From positions 1 to 63,094 of the forward strand of contig JAEELJ010000008.1 of assembly GCA_016288855.1 (NCBI GenBank): a DNA stretch of 63,094 bases, given 5' to 3'. A program made the position numbers and the translations under genes. This stretch comes from Acholeplasmatales bacterium. Lineage in GTDB: Bacteria; Bacillota_I; Bacilli_A; Acholeplasmatales; Anaeroplasmataceae. The notes beneath the pieces are model-generated. The model had not been told where the DNA came from and ran no database searches. It saw nothing but the letters and a program-made list of their open reading frames with translations. Each line of letters begins with the position of its first letter. Position 1 is the first letter of the stretch. Positions 2,210-55,838 of this stretch are shown here, piece after piece.

Positions 2210-2260
2210 AAGATTCACCATAAAAATTGTAGCACACTTGTTATTATTTTTAAACAAAAT

Positions 2261-2284
2261 AAAAAGGAGGTCATATTAACCTCC
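2261..2284 (-). terminator. Rho-independent terminator after the FakA-like domain gene
   Basis: GGAGGT and ACCTCC arms (2266-2284) flank a 7-base loop. On the minus strand they are followed by a run of Ts. It lies 9 bases past the stop of the 87-residue gene and also separates it from the Nudix-prmC-tsaC unit. Confidence 0.75.
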
Positions 2285-2292
2285 CAAATATC

Positions 2293-2556
2293 TTAGCCCT
2301 TTAAGCCTCTTGCTTGTCTATCCATATCTTCAATAACGATATCATAGATTTCGCCTAATGTTCTACAATATTTTAATACTTCCCATGGTTCATTTGTATG
2401 GAAATGAATTTTAACTAAATCTTCATCACCAACTATTAATGTACAATCACCTTTAAAGTTTTCTTCAAAATATTCAGTCATTTTATCAGGATCTAGGTTT
2501 TCTCCCTCTACTAATAACTGTGTATCATATCTAAATTCAATTGACTGTTCTGCCAT
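2293..2556 (-). CDS. Orphan FakA/YloV-type DAK domain ('kinase to dihydroxyacetone kinase'-like), 87 aa
   Basis: The small protein contains IEFRYDTQLLVEG, GDCTLIVGDEDLVKIHFHTN and IVIEDMDRQ. These match the domain that follows the DhaL kinase domain in fatty-acid kinase subunit FakA (YloV), where the equivalent reads roughly YCTEFM...GDSLVVVGDDDLVKVHVHT...IENMREQ. No kinase domain is attached and no frame continues into one on either side, so it is a complete stand-alone protein. Its start is supported by GGAGGATTTAGT before ATG, and a terminator follows. Function unknown. It might act with a FakA/FakB system, since a DegV/FakB protein is encoded at 26079-26930. That link is inference. Confidence 0.6.
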   Translation of the reverse strand: MAEQSIEFRYDTQLLVEGENLDPDKMTEYFEENFKGDCTLIVGDEDLVKIHFHTNEPWEVLKYCRTLGEIYDIVIEDMDRQARGLKG

Positions 2557-2674
2557 ACTAAATCCTCCAAAATTATAAACTAATTATATACTAGCATTTT
2601 GAATAATTCAAGACAATAAATGATATTTATTAGTCATAACTAACTAATTTAGATAACATTATATAACTGAGTCC

Positions 2675-2713
2675 AAAAAAATGAGCCGATATATCAATAA
2701 TCTGGCTCATTTT
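2675..2713 (-). terminator. Terminator of the DUF2130 gene
   Basis: AAATGAGCC and GGCTCATTTT arms enclose an AT-rich loop directly after the stop of the DUF2130 gene. They are followed on the minus strand by a T-run (2675-2680 on the plus strand reads As). Confidence 0.75.
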
Positions 2714-2720
2714 CTAATAA

Positions 2721-4292
2721 TTAGTCTAATTTTTCAATCTTTTTTATATCTCTATTTAATTTTATTTCGAATGTATTTATCTTTTCTTCTATCTTTTGGA
2801 TATAAGATATTGCAATATGATCACAGGTTTGACTTATCTTTTCTGATGCATCTTTAATAGCTTGATTATTTTTGATTATATCAGATAAATCTTTTTCTAA
2901 TAATATTAATTGCTTATCTAAATATGTATTCTTTATTGATTGGAAATCAGATAATATATCTAATTTATCCTTTAAATCAATTTCTTCCTTTGCTTTCTTT
3001 AATATTAAATCACTATATCTTTTAGATAAAGATGTAATAATATTTAAGAATGTCATTAAATATGCAGGTCTTACAACATACATATCAGGATATTCTCTAA
3101 CCTTCCACATTGGCAATGCATTTGGCTTATCCATTTCTAGGTTAGATACTAATACTGCATATTTACATGTTTTCTTATTTCTATTCTTATCAAGCTTCTT
3201 ATAATAGCTTTCATTAGTCTTCTTATTTACGGAATCTGGATTCTCATCCTTCATATCCATACAAATAGATGTTATTTCTTCATAATCATTATGACTAGGA
3301 GTTGCGTAACAACGGAAAATATAATCCGCCTTAGAGCCATTATTTTCTCCTTCTTCTTTAATAACATCATTATCCTTAGTCCATGTACAGCATTCAAATC
3401 CATTTTGGAATGCTTCTTTTACAGTATTATCACACCAAGCTTCTAAATCCTCACCTGTTTGTTTAACATTAAGTGATGCTTTTTGACGTTGTAATAAATT
3501 TATTTCATCATCCTTTTTTCTAAGCTCAACATTAAATTCTTCTTTTAATTCATTAGTTTTCTTTTCTATTTCTAATAAATGAGCAGCTTTAGTTTTTTCA
3601 AGCTCACGCTCATTATTATTCAAAGAATTAATATATTCTTGTTCTCTTTTTGAAATAATAGAATCATATCTATTAGTAAGTTCTAATTCTTTTTCTTTTA
3701 TTTTAGCTTCAAATAATTTATTATTAGATTCCATTTGATGTATTAAATCATAAATTCTTTTTTCAAATGTTGCCTTTTGTTCCTGAAGTAGCATTTCTTG
3801 CTTATTCTTTTCAAAAGTTTTTATATTATCTAATTCATTTTTTAAATTATTTAATTCCTCATCAAATCTATTCTTTTGCTCTTGTAATAATAAATCAGTT
3901 CTAGATTTTTCTGTTTGTCTATTAATATCTAATTCATTCTTTAATTTATTAATTTCATCTTTATGAACTGCATTAAGCTTATTAATTTCTTCATTTAATT
4001 TCTCTTTTGACCTATCATTTTGGCTTTCTATTTGATTTTTTAGATCTTTTATTTGTAATTCATAATCGCTTCTATTTTTATCAATTATAGCCTTATTTTG
4101 GATATCTAAGACGTTTTTGTATTCTTCTAGCTTCTTTTTATATACTAAATCAGTACCTTTAGATATTGCTTCTTCTAAGGCAACTGTATCAAATTCCTTT
4201 AATTCTCTTAAATCAATTATATCTCCTTTAATACCATCTGATTCAAGTACTAATGTATTCTTATCTCTTACTGAAACTTCTAGCTTTTTCAT
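2721..4292 (-). CDS. DUF2130 family protein: long coiled coil plus PD-(D/E)xK nuclease-like C-terminal domain
   Basis: The 523-residue product has a short N-terminal region, a charged, heptad-rich coiled coil from about residue 55 to 270, and a compact domain from about 280 to 420. The last contains GEDLEAW, GSKADYIF and CMDMKDEN, the order expected for the DUF2130 family. That family is proposed to carry a restriction-endonuclease-like fold; the acidic residue D323 and the D346-x-K348 pair are candidate active-site positions. A second helical stretch follows to the C-terminus. No membrane segment is seen. GGAGG precedes the ATG. It stands alone between two terminators, directly downstream of two tandem small RNAs. 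Its biological role is unknown. Confidence 0.75.
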   Translation of the reverse strand: MKKLEVSVRDKNTLVLESDGIKGDIIDLRELKEFDTVALEEAISKGTDLVYKKKLEEYKNVLDIQNKAIIDKNRSDYELQIKDLKNQIESQNDRSKEKLNEEINKLNAVHKDEINKLKNELDINRQTEKSRTDLLLQEQKNRFDEELNNLKNELDNIKTFEKNKQEMLLQEQKATFEKRIYDLIHQMESNNKLFEAKIKEKELELTNRYDSIISKREQEYINSLNNNERELEKTKAAHLLEIEKKTNELKEEFNVELRKKDDEINLLQRQKASLNVKQTGEDLEAWCDNTVKEAFQNGFECCTWTKDNDVIKEEGENNGSKADYIFRCYATPSHNDYEEITSICMDMKDENPDSVNKKTNESYYKKLDKNRNKKTCKYAVLVSNLEMDKPNALPMWKVREYPDMYVVRPAYLMTFLNIITSLSKRYSDLILKKAKEEIDLKDKLDILSDFQSIKNTYLDKQLILLEKDLSDIIKNNQAIKDASEKISQTCDHIAISYIQKIEEKINTFEIKLNRDIKKIEKLD

Positions 4293-4365
4293 TTAAATAA
4301 CCTCCTCGATATATAAATATTATAGTTAAAAAAATATATTATCGCTAATTATATTTAAATATTTT

Positions 4366-4504
4366 TATATAAAAACAGAAGCACCCGAAATCCGGGTGCT
4401 TCCTTTCCAGTGTGTTTTAAGTCTTTCCGACTTTTATAGAGATGTTAATAGTGTCCATAGCGATTGCTACTTTGGAGGCACTCAGGCACTCCCTCACTAT
4501 CTTC
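4366..4504 (-). ncRNA. Small structured RNA, copy A of a tandem pair (unassigned family)
   Basis: The transcript should start near 4504, 7 bases after a TATAAT box (4511-4516). It ends at a strong GC-rich hairpin (arms 4378-4387 and 4393-4402) followed by Ts. Visible stems are ATAGTG/CACTAT (4495-4500 with 4448-4453), TAGC/GCTA (4466-4469 with 4458-4461) and AAGTC/GACTT (4429-4433 with 4419-4423). No coding frame with a ribosome-binding site is present. Copy B, 190 bases upstream, has the same architecture with compensatory changes. The family is not one I recognise. A riboswitch acting on the DUF2130 gene was considered, but each copy has its own promoter and terminator. Confidence 0.7.
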
Positions 4505-4510
4505 ACCTGT

Positions 4511-4516
4511 ATTATA
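4511..4516 (-). promoter_or_regulatory. -10 box of small RNA copy A
   Basis: TATAAT on the minus strand sits exactly 11 bases before the conserved TAGTGAGG of the RNA, the same distance as in copy B. A convincing -35 at 17 bases is not seen; a weak TACATT lies there. Confidence 0.55.
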
Positions 4517-4564
4517 AACTATGAATGTAGACAAATGTAGGACAAAATAAAAAAATTGTTATAT

Positions 4565-4694
4565 AAACAGAAAGCACCCGATATTCGGGTGCTTCCTTTT
4601 CCAGTGTTTTATAGTCTTTACGACTTTTGTTAATTGATTAGTGTCCATGACCTCTGTCATTTCTCTGGCACTCAGGCTCAGCCTCACTAATTGC
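4565..4694 (-). ncRNA. Small structured RNA, copy B of a tandem pair (unassigned family)
   Basis: The transcript is predicted from about 4694 to 4565. An outer stem TTAGTG/CACTAA (4685-4690 with 4638-4643) encloses an AGGC/GCCT hairpin and a stem ATGAC/GTCAT (4656-4660 with 4647-4651). A small AGTC/GACT hairpin (4622-4625 with 4613-4616) follows, and then a terminator hairpin (4572-4580 with 4586-4594). Shared with copy A are TAGTGAGG, GCCTGAGTGCC, ATGGACACTA, AAAAGTC, AAAGACT and ACTGGAAA, plus the GAAGCACCCG-type terminator arm. The differing positions in the outer and ATGAC stems keep pairing, which supports a selected RNA structure. Confidence 0.75.
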
Positions 4695-4700
4695 AACTAC

Positions 4701-4729
4701 ATAATAAGATATTTTTTCTCATTTGTAAA
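4701..4729 (-). promoter_or_regulatory. Sigma-A-type promoter of small RNA copy B
   Basis: On the minus strand TTTACA (4724-4729) and TATTAT (4701-4706) are separated by exactly 17 bases. The conserved RNA begins 11 bases after the -10 box. Confidence 0.75.
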
Positions 4730-4744
4730 GCACTAATTTTTTAA

Positions 4745-4769
4745 TAAAAAATCTTGTACTATGTACAAG
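4745..4769 (-). terminator. Terminator after the GNAT pair
   Basis: CTTGTAC and GTACAAG (4753-4769) form a 7-bp stem with a 3-base loop. T-runs lie on both sides, so it could act in both directions; on the minus strand it ends the acetyltransferase unit. Confidence 0.65.
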
Positions 4770-4897
4770 TTTTTTTATTATATCTTTTATTTATATATTG
4801 ACTACATAAAAATGCATATTTTATTGCTAATTCGATAACTTTTATGTTTCTATTATACCATATTATCATATCTAATAAAATATATTTTATTAGGAAT

Positions 4898-5341
4898 TTA
4901 AATTTTTAATTCCATTGTAAAATGTGGTATTCCATCCTCTAAAAATTCATTACCTATAGTCTTAAATCCTACTTTATTGTAAAAGGGGATAGCATAAGTT
5001 TGTGCATGTATTGTAATAGTATTATCAAGCTTTAAATCAGTAATTAATTTTATTGCTTCCTTAAGTAAAATTAATCCTATATTTTTACCTCTATATTCTT
5101 TTTTAACTATAACCCTTCCTATAGAAGATGTATTTAAATACATATTCTTAGGAATTACTCTTAAATAAGCTATTATTTCATCATTATTTTTATAGAACAT
5201 GTGATAACTATTTTTATCCACATCATCTATATCTAAATATGGGCAATTTTGTTCAACAATAAATACCTCACATCTTAATTTATATATAGAATATAATTCA
5301 TCTAATGATAATTTATAAAATTCTTTACAAACAAGTTCCAT
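4898..5341 (-). CDS. elaA: GNAT acetyltransferase, ElaA-like
   Basis: The N-terminus LYSIYKLRCEVFIVEQNCPY, followed by DIDDVDKNSYH, is the ElaA signature (LYxLLxLRxxVFxVEQxCPYxDxDxxDxxxxH). The GNAT core IGRVIVKKEYRGKNIGLILL holds the acetyl-CoA-binding R/QxxGxG/A-type loop, here RGKNIG. At 147 residues the length is normal. The in vivo substrate of ElaA proteins is unknown. The start overlaps the stop of the second GNAT gene upstream, so the two are probably translated from one message. Confidence 0.82.
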   Translation of the reverse strand: MELVCKEFYKLSLDELYSIYKLRCEVFIVEQNCPYLDIDDVDKNSYHMFYKNNDEIIAYLRVIPKNMYLNTSSIGRVIVKKEYRGKNIGLILLKEAIKLITDLKLDNTITIHAQTYAIPFYNKVGFKTIGNEFLEDGIPHFTMELKI

Positions 5342-5808
5342 TAATCTAATATTATCTCCATTTGAGTTTCTTTAACCTTAAATCCCATATTGTTATAGAA
5401 TTTCTTAGCATTATCATTGCCTTCCCAAACATTTAGGGTTACTTCATAGCATCCAATCTTTTTGGCATAAGCTTTAACATAATCAATTAATGAAGATCCA
5501 ATATGTAATCCTCTCATTCCTTCTTTAACACATAAATCATCTATATATAAGATTTTATGCTTTTGCATATTAATAGATGTTGTGACCTTTATTTGACAGA
5601 ATGCATAGCCTAATACTTCATCTTTAGAATCAACATATACAAATATGGGTGTTGCATCATTAGATATTATTTCTTTTAAATCATTATCATCATATTTAGT
5701 TGTGCCTTTAGCAAAAATATCTGGTCTTATATTATAATGTAGATTTAATACTTCACTTAATAGCTCTTTTAATGTATTTATATCTTTTTCTTTTGCACGT
5801 CTTATCAT
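5341..5808 (-). CDS. GNAT family N-acetyltransferase
   Basis: The 155-residue protein begins MIRRAKEKDINTLKELLSEV. It contains a YIDDLCVKEGMRGLHIGSSL segment with the acetyl-CoA loop RGLHIG, then a LNVWEGNDNAKKFYNNMGFK segment. That is the complete GNAT fold from strand beta-1 to the FYxxxGF C-terminal motif. It is closest in style to RimI/PhnO-like acetyltransferases, but the substrate cannot be assigned. It heads a two-gene unit with the ElaA-like gene. A perfect 18-bp palindrome lies in its promoter region (5837-5854). Confidence 0.8.
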   Translation of the reverse strand: MIRRAKEKDINTLKELLSEVLNLHYNIRPDIFAKGTTKYDDNDLKEIISNDATPIFVYVDSKDEVLGYAFCQIKVTTSINMQKHKILYIDDLCVKEGMRGLHIGSSLIDYVKAYAKKIGCYEVTLNVWEGNDNAKKFYNNMGFKVKETQMEIILD

Positions 5809-5836
5809 TATATCACCAAGTCTTATTATATCATAA

Positions 5837-5854
5837 AAGATACTTAAGTATCTT
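5837..5854. promoter_or_regulatory. 18-bp perfect palindrome in the GNAT promoter region
   Basis: AAGATACTTAAGTATCTT reads identically on both strands. It lies just upstream of a TATAAT-type -10 box for the minus-strand acetyltransferase genes, about where a -35 element would be, so it is a plausible repressor operator. Confidence 0.45.
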
Positions 5855-5907
5855 ATATTATATATAGGAATAAAATGAAGCTATATATTATATATAATAG
5901 GATAGGA

Positions 5908-6834
5908 TTAATCGAACAATGTATGAACATCATTTATATATGATTCCATTTTTGCTTCTTTTATAATATCATCTTCTTCTATATCTCCTATTAATAAAGG
6001 AGAATATTTATTATGATTTTTATAATTCTTTTTTACTAAATCATATGAATAATTTGCATAACAATATCTACAATTATGTAGACATGTATTATATTGACCT
6101 ATATCATTTGTAATTAAGCAATTACAGCCTTTTCTAAATCCTTTAATGTTTTTATTTAATGATATTTGAAGTGCTTCTTCTATAATCTCTTTTGTCATAC
6201 ATCCATTTGTTGTAATTCCATATTTTTGGTATTTACTATTTTCTAAGCATAATCTTAATACCATTCCATTCTCTTTTGCGATAGGAATGAATGCTTGAAT
6301 TAAAGATTCTTCTTCACTTGGGCTTGGGGCTTTTAGGTCTTTAGCATTCTTTTTCACTTTATCATAAATATCTAAAAAAGATATTGTAACTGAAGTTGTA
6401 TACCCTCTTAAGAGGGTAAGAAGGCGCCTGAATGCTCTAATATGCTTTTCTACTGTCCATTCATCATTAATTATTACAGGATCATATCTTAAATGAATTT
6501 TTTCTTTTCCTATGATGCAAGAAAGTTTTTTAAATGATTCAATTATTTCCTTTTTATCAGGAACATTTACTTCTATGTCTTTACCATATGGTGTAATTGT
6601 TACAAACCAAAACATTCTAAATTTTTTTAGTTTATCAATATATTTAAGCATAGGTGTAGGATTTTTTGTACAAAAAACTAATACATCTACTACACTAGGA
6701 TCTAATATGTATTTTGTTACTTGTTTAGGAAAATATGGGTTTCTAACGTAACAAAAGCCCTCATTTATTCTATTCATAAACCATTCTGAATAGAATGCAG
6801 GAATATCGGTTCTTTGACCTGTGTTTATAATCAT
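5908..6834 (-). CDS. DUF1848 family protein with C-terminal radical-SAM-like cysteine motif
   Basis: The 308-residue protein follows DUF1848 closely: GQRTDIPAFYSEWFMNR near the start, VRNPYFPKQV, VFCTKNPTPML, WFVTITPYGK, and HLRYDPVII. Near the C-terminus CLHNCRYCYANY gives CxxxCxxC, the spacing of a radical-SAM [4Fe-4S] site, preceded by further cysteines (GCNCL). The reaction is unknown. ATG 6834 is chosen over ATG 6855 because GGAGGTG lies between them and is correctly spaced only for 6834. It appears monocistronic, with guaA and its terminator upstream. Confidence 0.8.
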   Translation of the reverse strand: MIINTGQRTDIPAFYSEWFMNRINEGFCYVRNPYFPKQVTKYILDPSVVDVLVFCTKNPTPMLKYIDKLKKFRMFWFVTITPYGKDIEVNVPDKKEIIESFKKLSCIIGKEKIHLRYDPVIINDEWTVEKHIRAFRRLLTLLRGYTTSVTISFLDIYDKVKKNAKDLKAPSPSEEESLIQAFIPIAKENGMVLRLCLENSKYQKYGITTNGCMTKEIIEEALQISLNKNIKGFRKGCNCLITNDIGQYNTCLHNCRYCYANYSYDLVKKNYKNHNKYSPLLIGDIEEDDIIKEAKMESYINDVHTLFD

Positions 6835-6919
6835 AGTAAATGCACCTCCATTCAATTTTAATTATAGCTTAATTTTTTATTTTTATGATTTATCATTATT
6901 ATTTTATTTATAAATAATT

Positions 6920-6957
6920 AAAAAGCCGTAAATTTGCAAATTTATGCAAATTACGGC
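6920..6957 (-). terminator. Terminator of the purK-guaA operon
   Basis: A long stem, GCCGTAA-TTTGC paired with GCAAA-TTACGGC with one bulged base (6925-6957), follows the guaA stop by 8 bases. It is followed by TTTT on the minus strand. Confidence 0.85.
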
Positions 6958-6964
6958 ATATTTA

Positions 6965-8506
6965 TTATTCGAATTCGATTGTTGCAGGTGGTTTAGAAGT
7001 ACAATCATAAAGTACTCTATTAACACCCTTTACTTCGTTTACGATTCTTCTTGATACCTTATCTAATACATCATAAGGAATTCTTGCCCAGTCAGCAGTC
7101 ATGAAATCTGATGTCATAACAGCACGTAACGCGATAGCATAATCATATGTTCTACCATCACCCATAACACCAACAGATTGCATATTAGTTAATGCAGCAA
7201 AGTATTGACCAATACCCTTAATTCCAGCATTTGCAATTTCTTCACGATAGATTGCATCAGCTTCCTGTACAATCTTAACCTTTTCAGCAGTTACTGCACC
7301 AATAATACGGATTCCAAGTCCTGGACCTGGGAATGGTTGACGATATACTAGATAATCAGGAATTCCTAATTCTAGACCAACCTTTCTAACTTCATCCTTA
7401 AATAATAATCTTAATGGTTCAACGATTTCCTTGAAATCAACAACATCAGGTAAGCCACCTACATTATGATGTGACTTAATAGTTGCAGATTTACCTAAGC
7501 CTGATTCAATAACATCTGGGTAAATAGTACCTTGTGCTAAGAAATCAACCTTACCAATCTTCTTTGCTTCATCTTCGAATACTCTAATGAATTCTTCACC
7601 AATGATCTTTCTCTTACGTTCAGGTTCAGTAACACCTTCAAGCTTCTTATAGAATCTTTCTTGTGCATTAACTCTAACGAAATTTAATTCATAATTTCCA
7701 TTAGGGCCAAATACTGATTCAACCTCATCGCCTTCATTCTTTCTTAAAAGACCATGATCAACGAATACACATGTTAATTGTTTACCTACTGCCTTTGATA
7801 ATAATACTGCAGCAACAGATGAATCAACTCCGCCTGATAGTGCACATAATACCTTACCATTACCAATTTTCTTTCTTAATTCTTCAACAGTAGTCTTAAC
7901 AAAATCATCCATCTTCCATAAGCCATGGCAGCCACATACCTTTAATACAAAGTTAGAAATCATCTTCATACCTTCATCTGTATGCATTACTTCTGGATGG
8001 TATTGTACACCATAAATCTTATTCTTTGTATCTTCCATTGCAGCAATAGGACAAGTCTTTGATTTTGCAGTAATTTCAAAGCCTTGTGGTGCTTTAGATA
8101 CATAGTCAGTATGGCTCATCCAAACATTAGTATTAGCTGATACTCCATCAAATAATAAAGAATTTGTCTTAGTTACTTCAATTGCTGTTTTACCATATTC
8201 ACTCTTAGGTGCATGAGTAACACTACCACCTAATGCATGACCAATTGTCTGACATCCATAGCAAATACCTAAAATTGGATATCCTAATTTAAATACCTCA
8301 GGATTAATATGTGGAGAATCTTCTTCAAATACTGAATTAGGTCCACCTGTGAAAATAATACCCTTTGGATTAAATTCTTTTATTTTTTCAATGCTCATAT
8401 TGTAAGGATGTACCTCACAATAAACATTACACTCTCTTACACGTCTTGCGATAAGCTGGTTATATTGACCACCAAAATCTAAGACTAATACCTTTTCGTC
8501 CTTCAA
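6965..8506 (-). CDS. guaA: GMP synthase (glutamine-hydrolysing)
   Basis: GuaA converts XMP to GMP using glutamine and ATP. The 513-residue product has the class I amidotransferase domain first, with FTGGPNSV, the nucleophile-bearing GICYGCQ and the YHPEV histidine. The ATP pyrophosphatase P-loop LSGGVDSSV follows, and the C-terminal dimerisation domain ends [11 protein letters not shown]. The start is a TTG at 8506, preceded by AAGGAGGAATTACAC; no better ATG exists. It is the last gene of the purine operon, 44 bases after purB. guaB, the preceding enzyme, is not in the window. Confidence 0.97.
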
Positions 8507-54268: not shown

Positions 54269-54967
54269 TTAAAACTTTAAATATGAAATAAACTTTGTGT
54301 TTTTTGGAGAAATTTCCTTTAAAACTGGTACAAATTTAGACACGTAACCCCTTACTGATACAATTAATTCAATATTTTCATTATTAAAGTATGGAGTTAA
54401 TATTTCAGTAAACTTAGGATCATCTAAGCCATCAAATATCCAAATAGCTAATATTTCTCCCTTATAATAATCATAGAATAGAACATAACACTTTTCTTTA
54501 ATAGTTATAAGGTCAATAGAAATTCTAATCTTACCATATTCATTTAATAATCTATTATAATAGTCTTTTATTAATTCATCATATGGTGCATCAATATAGC
54601 TTCTAATCTTTTTATGTAATACATCAACATTTCTATCTGATATAAATATTCCCTTTTGAGTTAATATATCACATATTGCATCACGGCCTAATCCTTGATT
54701 CTTATAATAGTCAATCATACAAACAGTTTTTGCTGAATAAGTATATCCTTTAAAGCAAAGCTTAGTTGCAGTTTGAGAAAAATATACATTATCATCATTG
54801 CAATCCTTGCATGAATATCCCATATTCTTAATTCTAAATGCCTTACCTGAAGTAAATTGTACAACCTTATTTGAAACAGTGTAATTATACTTTAGCTGTT
54901 GACCACACTTAGGGCAAACTAAAATCTCAGGCTTATAAATTTTTACGGCTCTAGGCTCAATTTTCAT
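54269..54967 (-). CDS. Transposase-like protein, probably inactive or domesticated
   Basis: From ATG 54967 the protein has 232 residues. It shows two CxxC pairs (C18/C21 and C53/C56) forming a likely zinc ribbon, a helix-turn-helix-like stretch near 78-122 (MIDYYKNQGLGRDAICDILT), and then IRISIDLITIKEKCYVLFYD and KGEILAIWIFDGLDD, as in the RNase H fold of DDE transposases. The position expected for the second acidic residue reads SVRGYV, and the chain stops soon after, so the catalytic set is incomplete. No terminal inverted repeats were found. It overlaps the end of the glucokinase gene, so it is stably placed in an operon. Confidence 0.5.
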   Translation of the reverse strand: MKIEPRAVKIYKPEILVCPKCGQQLKYNYTVSNKVVQFTSGKAFRIKNMGYSCKDCNDDNVYFSQTATKLCFKGYTYSAKTVCMIDYYKNQGLGRDAICDILTQKGIFISDRNVDVLHKKIRSYIDAPYDELIKDYYNRLLNEYGKIRISIDLITIKEKCYVLFYDYYKGEILAIWIFDGLDDPKFTEILTPYFNNENIELIVSVRGYVSKFVPVLKEISPKNTKFISYLKF

Positions 54968-54971
54968 ACAA

Positions 54972-55838
54972 TCACCATAAATACGCGCTACCAAGCATAC
55001 CAGCCTTTTCCTTTAAAGTTGATATTTCAATTGGAGTATCCTTTACTCCATAATGCGCATATTCCTTATAATACTTTCTAACCTTATTTAATAATATATC
55101 TCCTGCAAGGCTAACTCCACCTGCAAGATAAAAAACATCTACATCACATGTAACTTGAATGTTTGCTAAAGCATGTGCTAAAGCCTTTGATACAGTATCT
55201 ATGACATGTAATGCAATATCATCATTTGATTTTGCTAAATCAAATACTTCTTTTGCAGTAATATCTTCTTTACTATTACTAAAAAGCTTATATAATCTAG
55301 TAACACCTGTTGCAGAGGCAATAGTTTCTAAGCAATTAGTAAGTCCACATGTACATTTGAAATTAAATTCACTTCCAATAAACATATGTCCTACTTCACC
55401 CGTACAGCAGTTTGCTCCAATAACAAGCTTATCATTATAAATATATCCACCACCTAAACCAGTACCTAGTGTTAATAAATATGATGAATGATATTTAGGA
55501 TTATTTAAATGCTCTCCTAATGCGGCACAGTTAGCATCATTTGTTGAATATAAATTAATATCTTTAAAGTATTTATTATGAATTTCTTTTAAATCAATAT
55601 CATATAATCCAACATTAGGTAATGCCTTAATATAATTATTATTAACACTACCAGGTAGACCAAAGCCTATACCAGAAACATTAATATTATTCTTACTAAT
55701 ATATTCCTTAATTGATTTATAAATATCATCAAATAAAGAATCCTTATTAGTTTTTATAGAATAACAATCTAAAATTTTATAATTATCTACGATGCCAATT
55801 TTAACTGTAGTCCCACCTACATCAACACCAATTCTCAC
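54972..55838 (-). CDS. glcK: ROK family sugar kinase, probable glucokinase
   Basis: The 288-residue kinase has the phosphate-binding GVDVGGTTVKIGIVD, LPGSV, STNDANCAALGE (catalytic aspartate), LGTGLGGGYI, GEVGHM and the ROK zinc site CTCGLTNCLE. A GTG at 55838 is the likely start: it falls 2 bases after the LRAT gene stop, with GGGGTTG upstream and no ATG nearby. Glucose is the usual substrate of this size class, but related hexoses are possible. Confidence 0.87.
   Translation of the reverse strand: MRIGVDVGGTTVKIGIVDNYKILDCYSIKTNKDSLFDDIYKSIKEYISKNNINVSGIGFGLPGSVNNNYIKALPNVGLYDIDLKEIHNKYFKDINLYSTNDANCAALGEHLNNPKYHSSYLLTLGTGLGGGYIYNDKLVIGANCCTGEVGHMFIGSEFNFKCTCGLTNCLETIASATGVTRLYKLFSNSKEDITAKEVFDLAKSNDDIALHVIDTVSKALAHALANIQVTCDVDVFYLAGGVSLAGDILLNKVRKYYKEYAHYGVKDTPIEISTLKEKAGMLGSAYLW

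Follow-up and report, generated by a model that had tools for sequence, protein, structure and literature searches.

Two paralogous RNA-like units, here called copy A and copy B, lie on the minus strand of the window, by which we mean the whole analysed stretch of 63,094 nucleotides, and they probably represent (about two chances in three, 0.66) tandem sibling small RNAs (sRNAs) that are separately transcribed and arose by duplication of one sRNA gene. Each unit spans about 130 nt, and the pair is flanked by two GNAT acetyltransferase genes (4898-5808) on one side and by a gene encoding a DUF2130 protein on the other (Table 1). A and B are 74% identical, and their local alignment score reached 109, compared with a maximum of 33 among shuffled sequences. 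The homologous part extends from the -10 box through the intrinsic terminator, and similarity fades upstream of the -10 boxes; the two starts are 193 bases apart, and these are the only two copies in the host genome. The initial annotation, made from the letters of the sequence, had reported two paralogous segments at this place, and this observation is confirmed and is stronger than first stated.

Table 1 Positions in the window of the features of copies A and B and of their immediate context.
Feature	Position	Strand	Basis or remark
Copy B RNA, about 130 nt	4560..4694	-	-10 box to terminator end; 5' end inferred
Copy B -35 box TTTACA	4724..4729	-	consensus match only
Copy B -10 box TATTAT	4701..4706	-	17 nt from -35 box, 11 nt before TAGTGAGG
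Copy B three-way junction	4637..4691	-	covariation and RNAalifold
Copy B P1	4690-4685/4643-4638	-	may extend by 4691/4637
Copy B P2	4681-4676/4669-4665	-	one bulged base
Copy B P3	4660-4656/4651-4647	-	
Copy B hairpin P4 AGTC-GTAAA-GACT	4613..4625	-	folding; pairs invariant between copies
Copy B intrinsic terminator	4569..4597	-	terminator scan
Copy A RNA, about 130 nt	4367..4504	-	-10 box to terminator end; 5' end inferred
Copy A -10 box TATAAT	4511..4516	-	11 nt before TAGTGAGG; no good -35 box
Copy A three-way junction	4447..4501	-	covariation and RNAalifold
Copy A P1	4500-4495/4453-4448	-	may extend by 4501/4447
Copy A P2	4491-4486/4479-4475	-	extendable by 4492/4474
Copy A P3	4470-4466/4461-4457	-	
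Copy A hairpin P4 AGTC-GGAAA-GACT	4420..4432	-	folding; pairs invariant between copies
Copy A intrinsic terminator	4377..4403	-	terminator scan
Bidirectional terminator between upstream GNAT genes and copy B	4753..4769	.	terminator scan
DUF2130 gene, next downstream	2721..4292	-	domain match; context, not part of the unit

The two copies are predicted to share a common fold, in which a three-way junction of helices P1, P2 and P3 is followed by hairpin P4 and then by the terminator. In the alignment of the copies (A3), P1 occupies columns 4-9/51-56, P2 columns 13-15 and 17-18/25-29 with one bulged base, and P3 columns 34-38/43-47. Of the first 60 columns 21 vary, and 11 of these lie in stems. 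Pairing is kept at all six variable pairs, five of which changed on both sides (columns 4-56, 13-29, 14-28, 36-45 and 37-44), and the remaining one, 34-47, went from A-U to G-U. RNAalifold gave the same fold unprompted, with P1 one pair longer. At least five double-change pairs arose in 2 of 2000 mutation simulations, in which the same number of random substitutions was introduced and each partner was scored in its own best consensus fold, and in none of 2000 column-shuffle simulations; the consensus energy was equalled by no simulation of either type. A second shuffle control gave 16/500, which is weak since two sequences permit few shuffles. Sliding the partners abolished the covariation signal, and the folding z-scores, with the terminator included, were -4.3 for A and -5.7 for B. 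The loops and junctions AGG, CUGAGU (the P2 loop) and GGA are fixed in both copies, as is the GNAAA form of the P4 loop. The covariation, drawn from two sequences of one genome, indicates that the shared fold is under selection. Compensatory change between two paralogues of a single genome can suffice to prove an RNA fold when no orthologue is available. The compensation that the initial annotation had described in an outer stem (TTAGTG/CACTAA versus ATAGTG/CACTAT) and an inner stem (ATGAC/GTCAT versus TAGC/GCTA) is real. P2, which holds two of the five double changes, was absent from that account.

Copy A carries CCTCC where copy B has CCAGA, and the initial annotation had put forward CCTCC as able to pair with Shine-Dalgarno sequences, and the difference as a sign that the copies may have different targets. 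In the covarying fold, CCTCC forms the 3' strand of P2 with an unpaired probability of at most 0.08, and even in the unconstrained ensemble 3 of the 5 bases remain paired, so a role of CCTCC as an exposed anti-Shine-Dalgarno seed is not supported. The difference between the copies is mostly one side of compensated P2 pairs (columns 28 and 29) and therefore speaks for structure rather than for divergent targets. The CUGAGU loop, in the same fold, is unpaired with a probability of 0.82-1.0 in A and is less exposed in B (0.24-1.0).

The minimum-energy fold of the full RNAs is a different one, in which TAGTG pairs with a CACTG immediately preceding the terminator, joined in B by AGTGCC/GGACACT. 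The three-way junction is costlier than this fold by 0.8 (A) and 3.8 (B) kcal/mol. However, the variable pairs of the competing fold are confined to P3 and no covariation is gained beyond it, so it is without comparative support. In the nascent RNA, before CACTGG has been made, the junction is the minimum-energy fold in A and not in B. On these folding models, the competing fold may be an alternative state of the RNAs.

As for transcription, the initial annotation had placed the -10 box exactly 11 bases from TAGTGAGG in both copies, which is borne out, and had credited each copy with its own promoter. As a prediction from sequence, the latter holds well for B (TTTACA-17-TATTAT) and is weaker for A, where no -35 box is convincing and the case consists of a -10 box plus the fixed spacing. 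Promoter-like matches were not above chance in this AT-rich region (22 found, 27.9 expected); because such patterns are common in the DNA of the region, the promoter argument rests on the fixed 11-nt spacing. Terminator-like sites numbered 4 in 3.4 kb against 0.6 expected, including one per copy and a bidirectional one. The terminators of A and B, whose stems had been noted before, are not due to chance, and the bidirectional terminator is predicted to insulate the RNA genes from upstream transcription. From this arrangement we infer that A and B are transcribed as two separate RNAs. The proposal of independently transcribed sRNAs thus stands as regards the paralogous RNA-like units, the compensated stems, the terminators and the lack of an Rfam family, and is less firm as regards the promoter of A.

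The main alternative is that A and B are tandem complete riboswitches or attenuators, with the junction as aptamer and the terminators as expression platforms, controlling DUF2130 or reading a cell metabolite. Complete riboswitches in tandem are on record, among them the triple c-di-GMP riboswitch (PMC4759541) and further cases (PMC9481103), and like A and B they consist of repeated structured units, each followed by a terminator. The two copies lie directly upstream of DUF2130 on the same strand, with 85 nt between the copy A terminator and the DUF2130 start; the compact junction, with its fixed loops and covarying stems, resembles an aptamer, and the competing fold available to these strands hints at a switch. 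In copy A, the 3' strand of P2, GTGCCTCC, can also pair with GGAAGCAC of the terminator. However, the pairing of this strand with the 5' arm of the terminator was computed at -5.8 (B) and -11.0 (A) kcal/mol, compared with -19.7 and -20.4 kcal/mol for the terminators, which leaves the antiterminator weaker by about 9 (A) and 14 (B) kcal/mol. Comparison of A with B revealed no conserved antiterminator, and hence no mutually exclusive terminator/antiterminator pair of the kind expected of a riboswitch. Unlike tandem riboswitches, A and B have a -10 box before each unit, at equal offset, and they show no consistent linkage to a gene of any known ligand pathway. DUF2130 is preceded by a TATAAT-like box and a strong Shine-Dalgarno sequence of its own, both located after the copy A terminator, the last of the two, and its relatives in the family, including those at 45-51% identity, occur without the RNA, so that an association of the RNA with DUF2130 was dropped. 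Since each copy has a terminator, no antiterminator is conserved and a bidirectional terminator insulates the pair, independent tandem sibling sRNAs are favoured over tandem riboswitches of DUF2130, which we regard as unlikely.

We then consider known RNA families. None of the Rfam 15 families matched A or B above its gathering score, and the sub-threshold matches at E values up to 10 were AT-rich noise, partly on the opposite strand; the initial annotation had not recognised a family, and indeed none fits. It is very improbable that A and B are derived members of a known family, such as 6S RNA, too diverged for Rfam to detect. 6S RNA is a rod with a central bubble, which the compact 130-nt three-way junction does not resemble, and the Rfam model of 6S RNA (RF00013) did not match A or B. 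On the other side, this model detected no 6S RNA anywhere in the host genome, although positive controls were detected, and some Bacilli carry a pair of 6S RNAs, B. subtilis being listed among them (PMC4211561).

Homologues outside the host genome were sought at several depths. In 55 genomes of the family, neither blastn nor two covariance models, R1 on the minimum-energy fold and its replacement R2 on the covarying fold, found anything beyond chance. R1 gave no homologue in 160 genomes of the order, nor in 395 genomes of the class, and R2 gave none in 392 genomes of the phylum, the best 10 candidate stretches per genome being scored in the class and phylum searches. The best R1 matches lacked the conserved motifs once aligned and were judged to be chance, as were the weak R2 matches, one of which in the phylum (E 0.009) had broken stems. 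Phage and plasmid records yielded no blastn match. Exact-pattern scans returned 0 and then 2 unrelated matches in GTDB species genomes, and in IMG/VR 9 chance matches that the covariance model rejected, then 0 and 0. Because ten stretches per genome were scored and the genus mates are distant (PrmC identity at most 65%), these searches may have overlooked homologues that are diverged or very close. The sequence family of A and B is apparently new and has so far been seen in one species only. A lack of homologues had been named as an argument against independent sRNAs; none was found in the genomes searched outside the host genome, yet the paralogue pair itself supplies comparative evidence.

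With only two copies and no orthologues found, a chance resemblance or a recent functionless duplication comes into consideration, but neutral drift that altered about a quarter of a duplicate would have broken some of the variable pairs (2/2000 and 0/2000 in the two simulations), and we rate this reading as still less probable than a derived known family. The least probable reading is a small protein gene duplicated in tandem: although a frame from GTG 4506 and TTG 4696 stays open for 29 codons in each copy and is preserved by a 3-nt gap, it was rejected, as this only shared frame has 15 nonsynonymous and 0 synonymous codon changes with first positions changing most, its supposed start codon coincides with or precedes the expected transcription start and lacks a Shine-Dalgarno sequence, and RNA pairing accounts for the sequence changes.

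Under the favoured reading of sibling sRNAs, tandem duplication of one small RNA gene would have produced two siblings of about 130 nt, each transcribed from a separate -10 promoter and ended by a separate intrinsic terminator. The conserved core would comprise P1, placed at the extreme 5' end, P2 with its CUGAGU loop, and P3, with stems that change in matched pairs. With less certainty, the siblings may regulate in trans, with partial redundancy, by means of the fixed loops and junction, being recognised by shape and by these loops, either by a protein partner or by mRNAs that pair with the exposed CUGAGU loop. No other locus of the host genome is complementary to the copies over more than 14 bases, apart from the copies' own terminators, so this genome has no long antisense target. 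The Pfam models of Hfq and CsrA found no match in the host genome, whereas positive controls were detected, and the regulation would proceed without Hfq or CsrA.

Sibling sRNAs are an already known kind, and by sequence A and B appear to belong to none of their families. The nearest analogue is the pair NmsRA/NmsRB of Neisseria meningitidis, sibling sRNAs encoded in tandem within a single intergenic region, with about 70% identity, near-identical predicted structures and their own promoters, one of them weaker (PMC5362039); tandem layout, level of similarity and common structure recur in A and B, as does, on prediction, a weaker promoter for one copy. However, NmsRA/NmsRB fold into a row of three stem-loops whose anti-Shine-Dalgarno stretches are exposed, whereas A and B form a three-way junction in which the only anti-SD-like stretch is paired; the sequences are unrelated, and A and B are known here from their sequence. 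OmrA/OmrB, PrrF1/PrrF2, AbcR1/AbcR2 and the csRNAs are likewise tandem paralogous sRNAs thought to derive from duplication (PMC4211561), and A and B share this tandem paralogy, though no sequence relation was found. Most of the Gram-negative ones among them use Hfq, whose gene was not detected in the host genome of A and B. Protein-titrating sRNAs of the CsrB/RsmZ type contain several GGA motifs, as A and B do, but in A and B these motifs are unconserved in number and position, and the idea of a CsrA-binding sRNA was dropped because CsrA was not found in the host genome while the controls were.

If the sibling-sRNA reading is true, A and B would be the first members of a structured sRNA family, found in a Bacilli-like lineage without detected Hfq, CsrA or 6S RNA. 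To our knowledge, regulatory RNA has been little studied in this lineage. A more far-reaching reading, which we consider doubtful, is that the junction with AGG, CUGAGU and GGA is the recognition core of a new RNA class, serving either as an aptamer for a ligand or as partner to a new RNA-binding protein, with the TAGTG/CACTG alternative fold as a switch.

The neighbourhood of the pair was also surveyed. The interval from guaA to nudix-prmC-sua5 (window 2257-6965) is variable, and in the genus mate L077 the same interval contains a CobW-like GTPase gene and two ABC transporter genes, with DUF2130, the RNAs and the acetyltransferases absent. A second DUF2130 paralogue in the host genome (contig C55, L087 7681-9324) is about 45-49% identical and has no RNAs upstream. 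In genome G029 (L083) a DUF2130 gene directly follows a tRNA-Ser-like gene, recognised by eye within 300 bases upstream, which suggests that DUF2130 genes may ride in integration hotspots. Elsewhere in the window, an 87-aa ORF (2293-2556, minus strand) contains only the FakA-like middle domain (PF21645) and is probably a small stand-alone or remnant protein. An ORF at 54269-54994 (minus strand) resembles a piece of a transposase, with a zinc-ribbon start and a DDE-like stretch recognised by eye.
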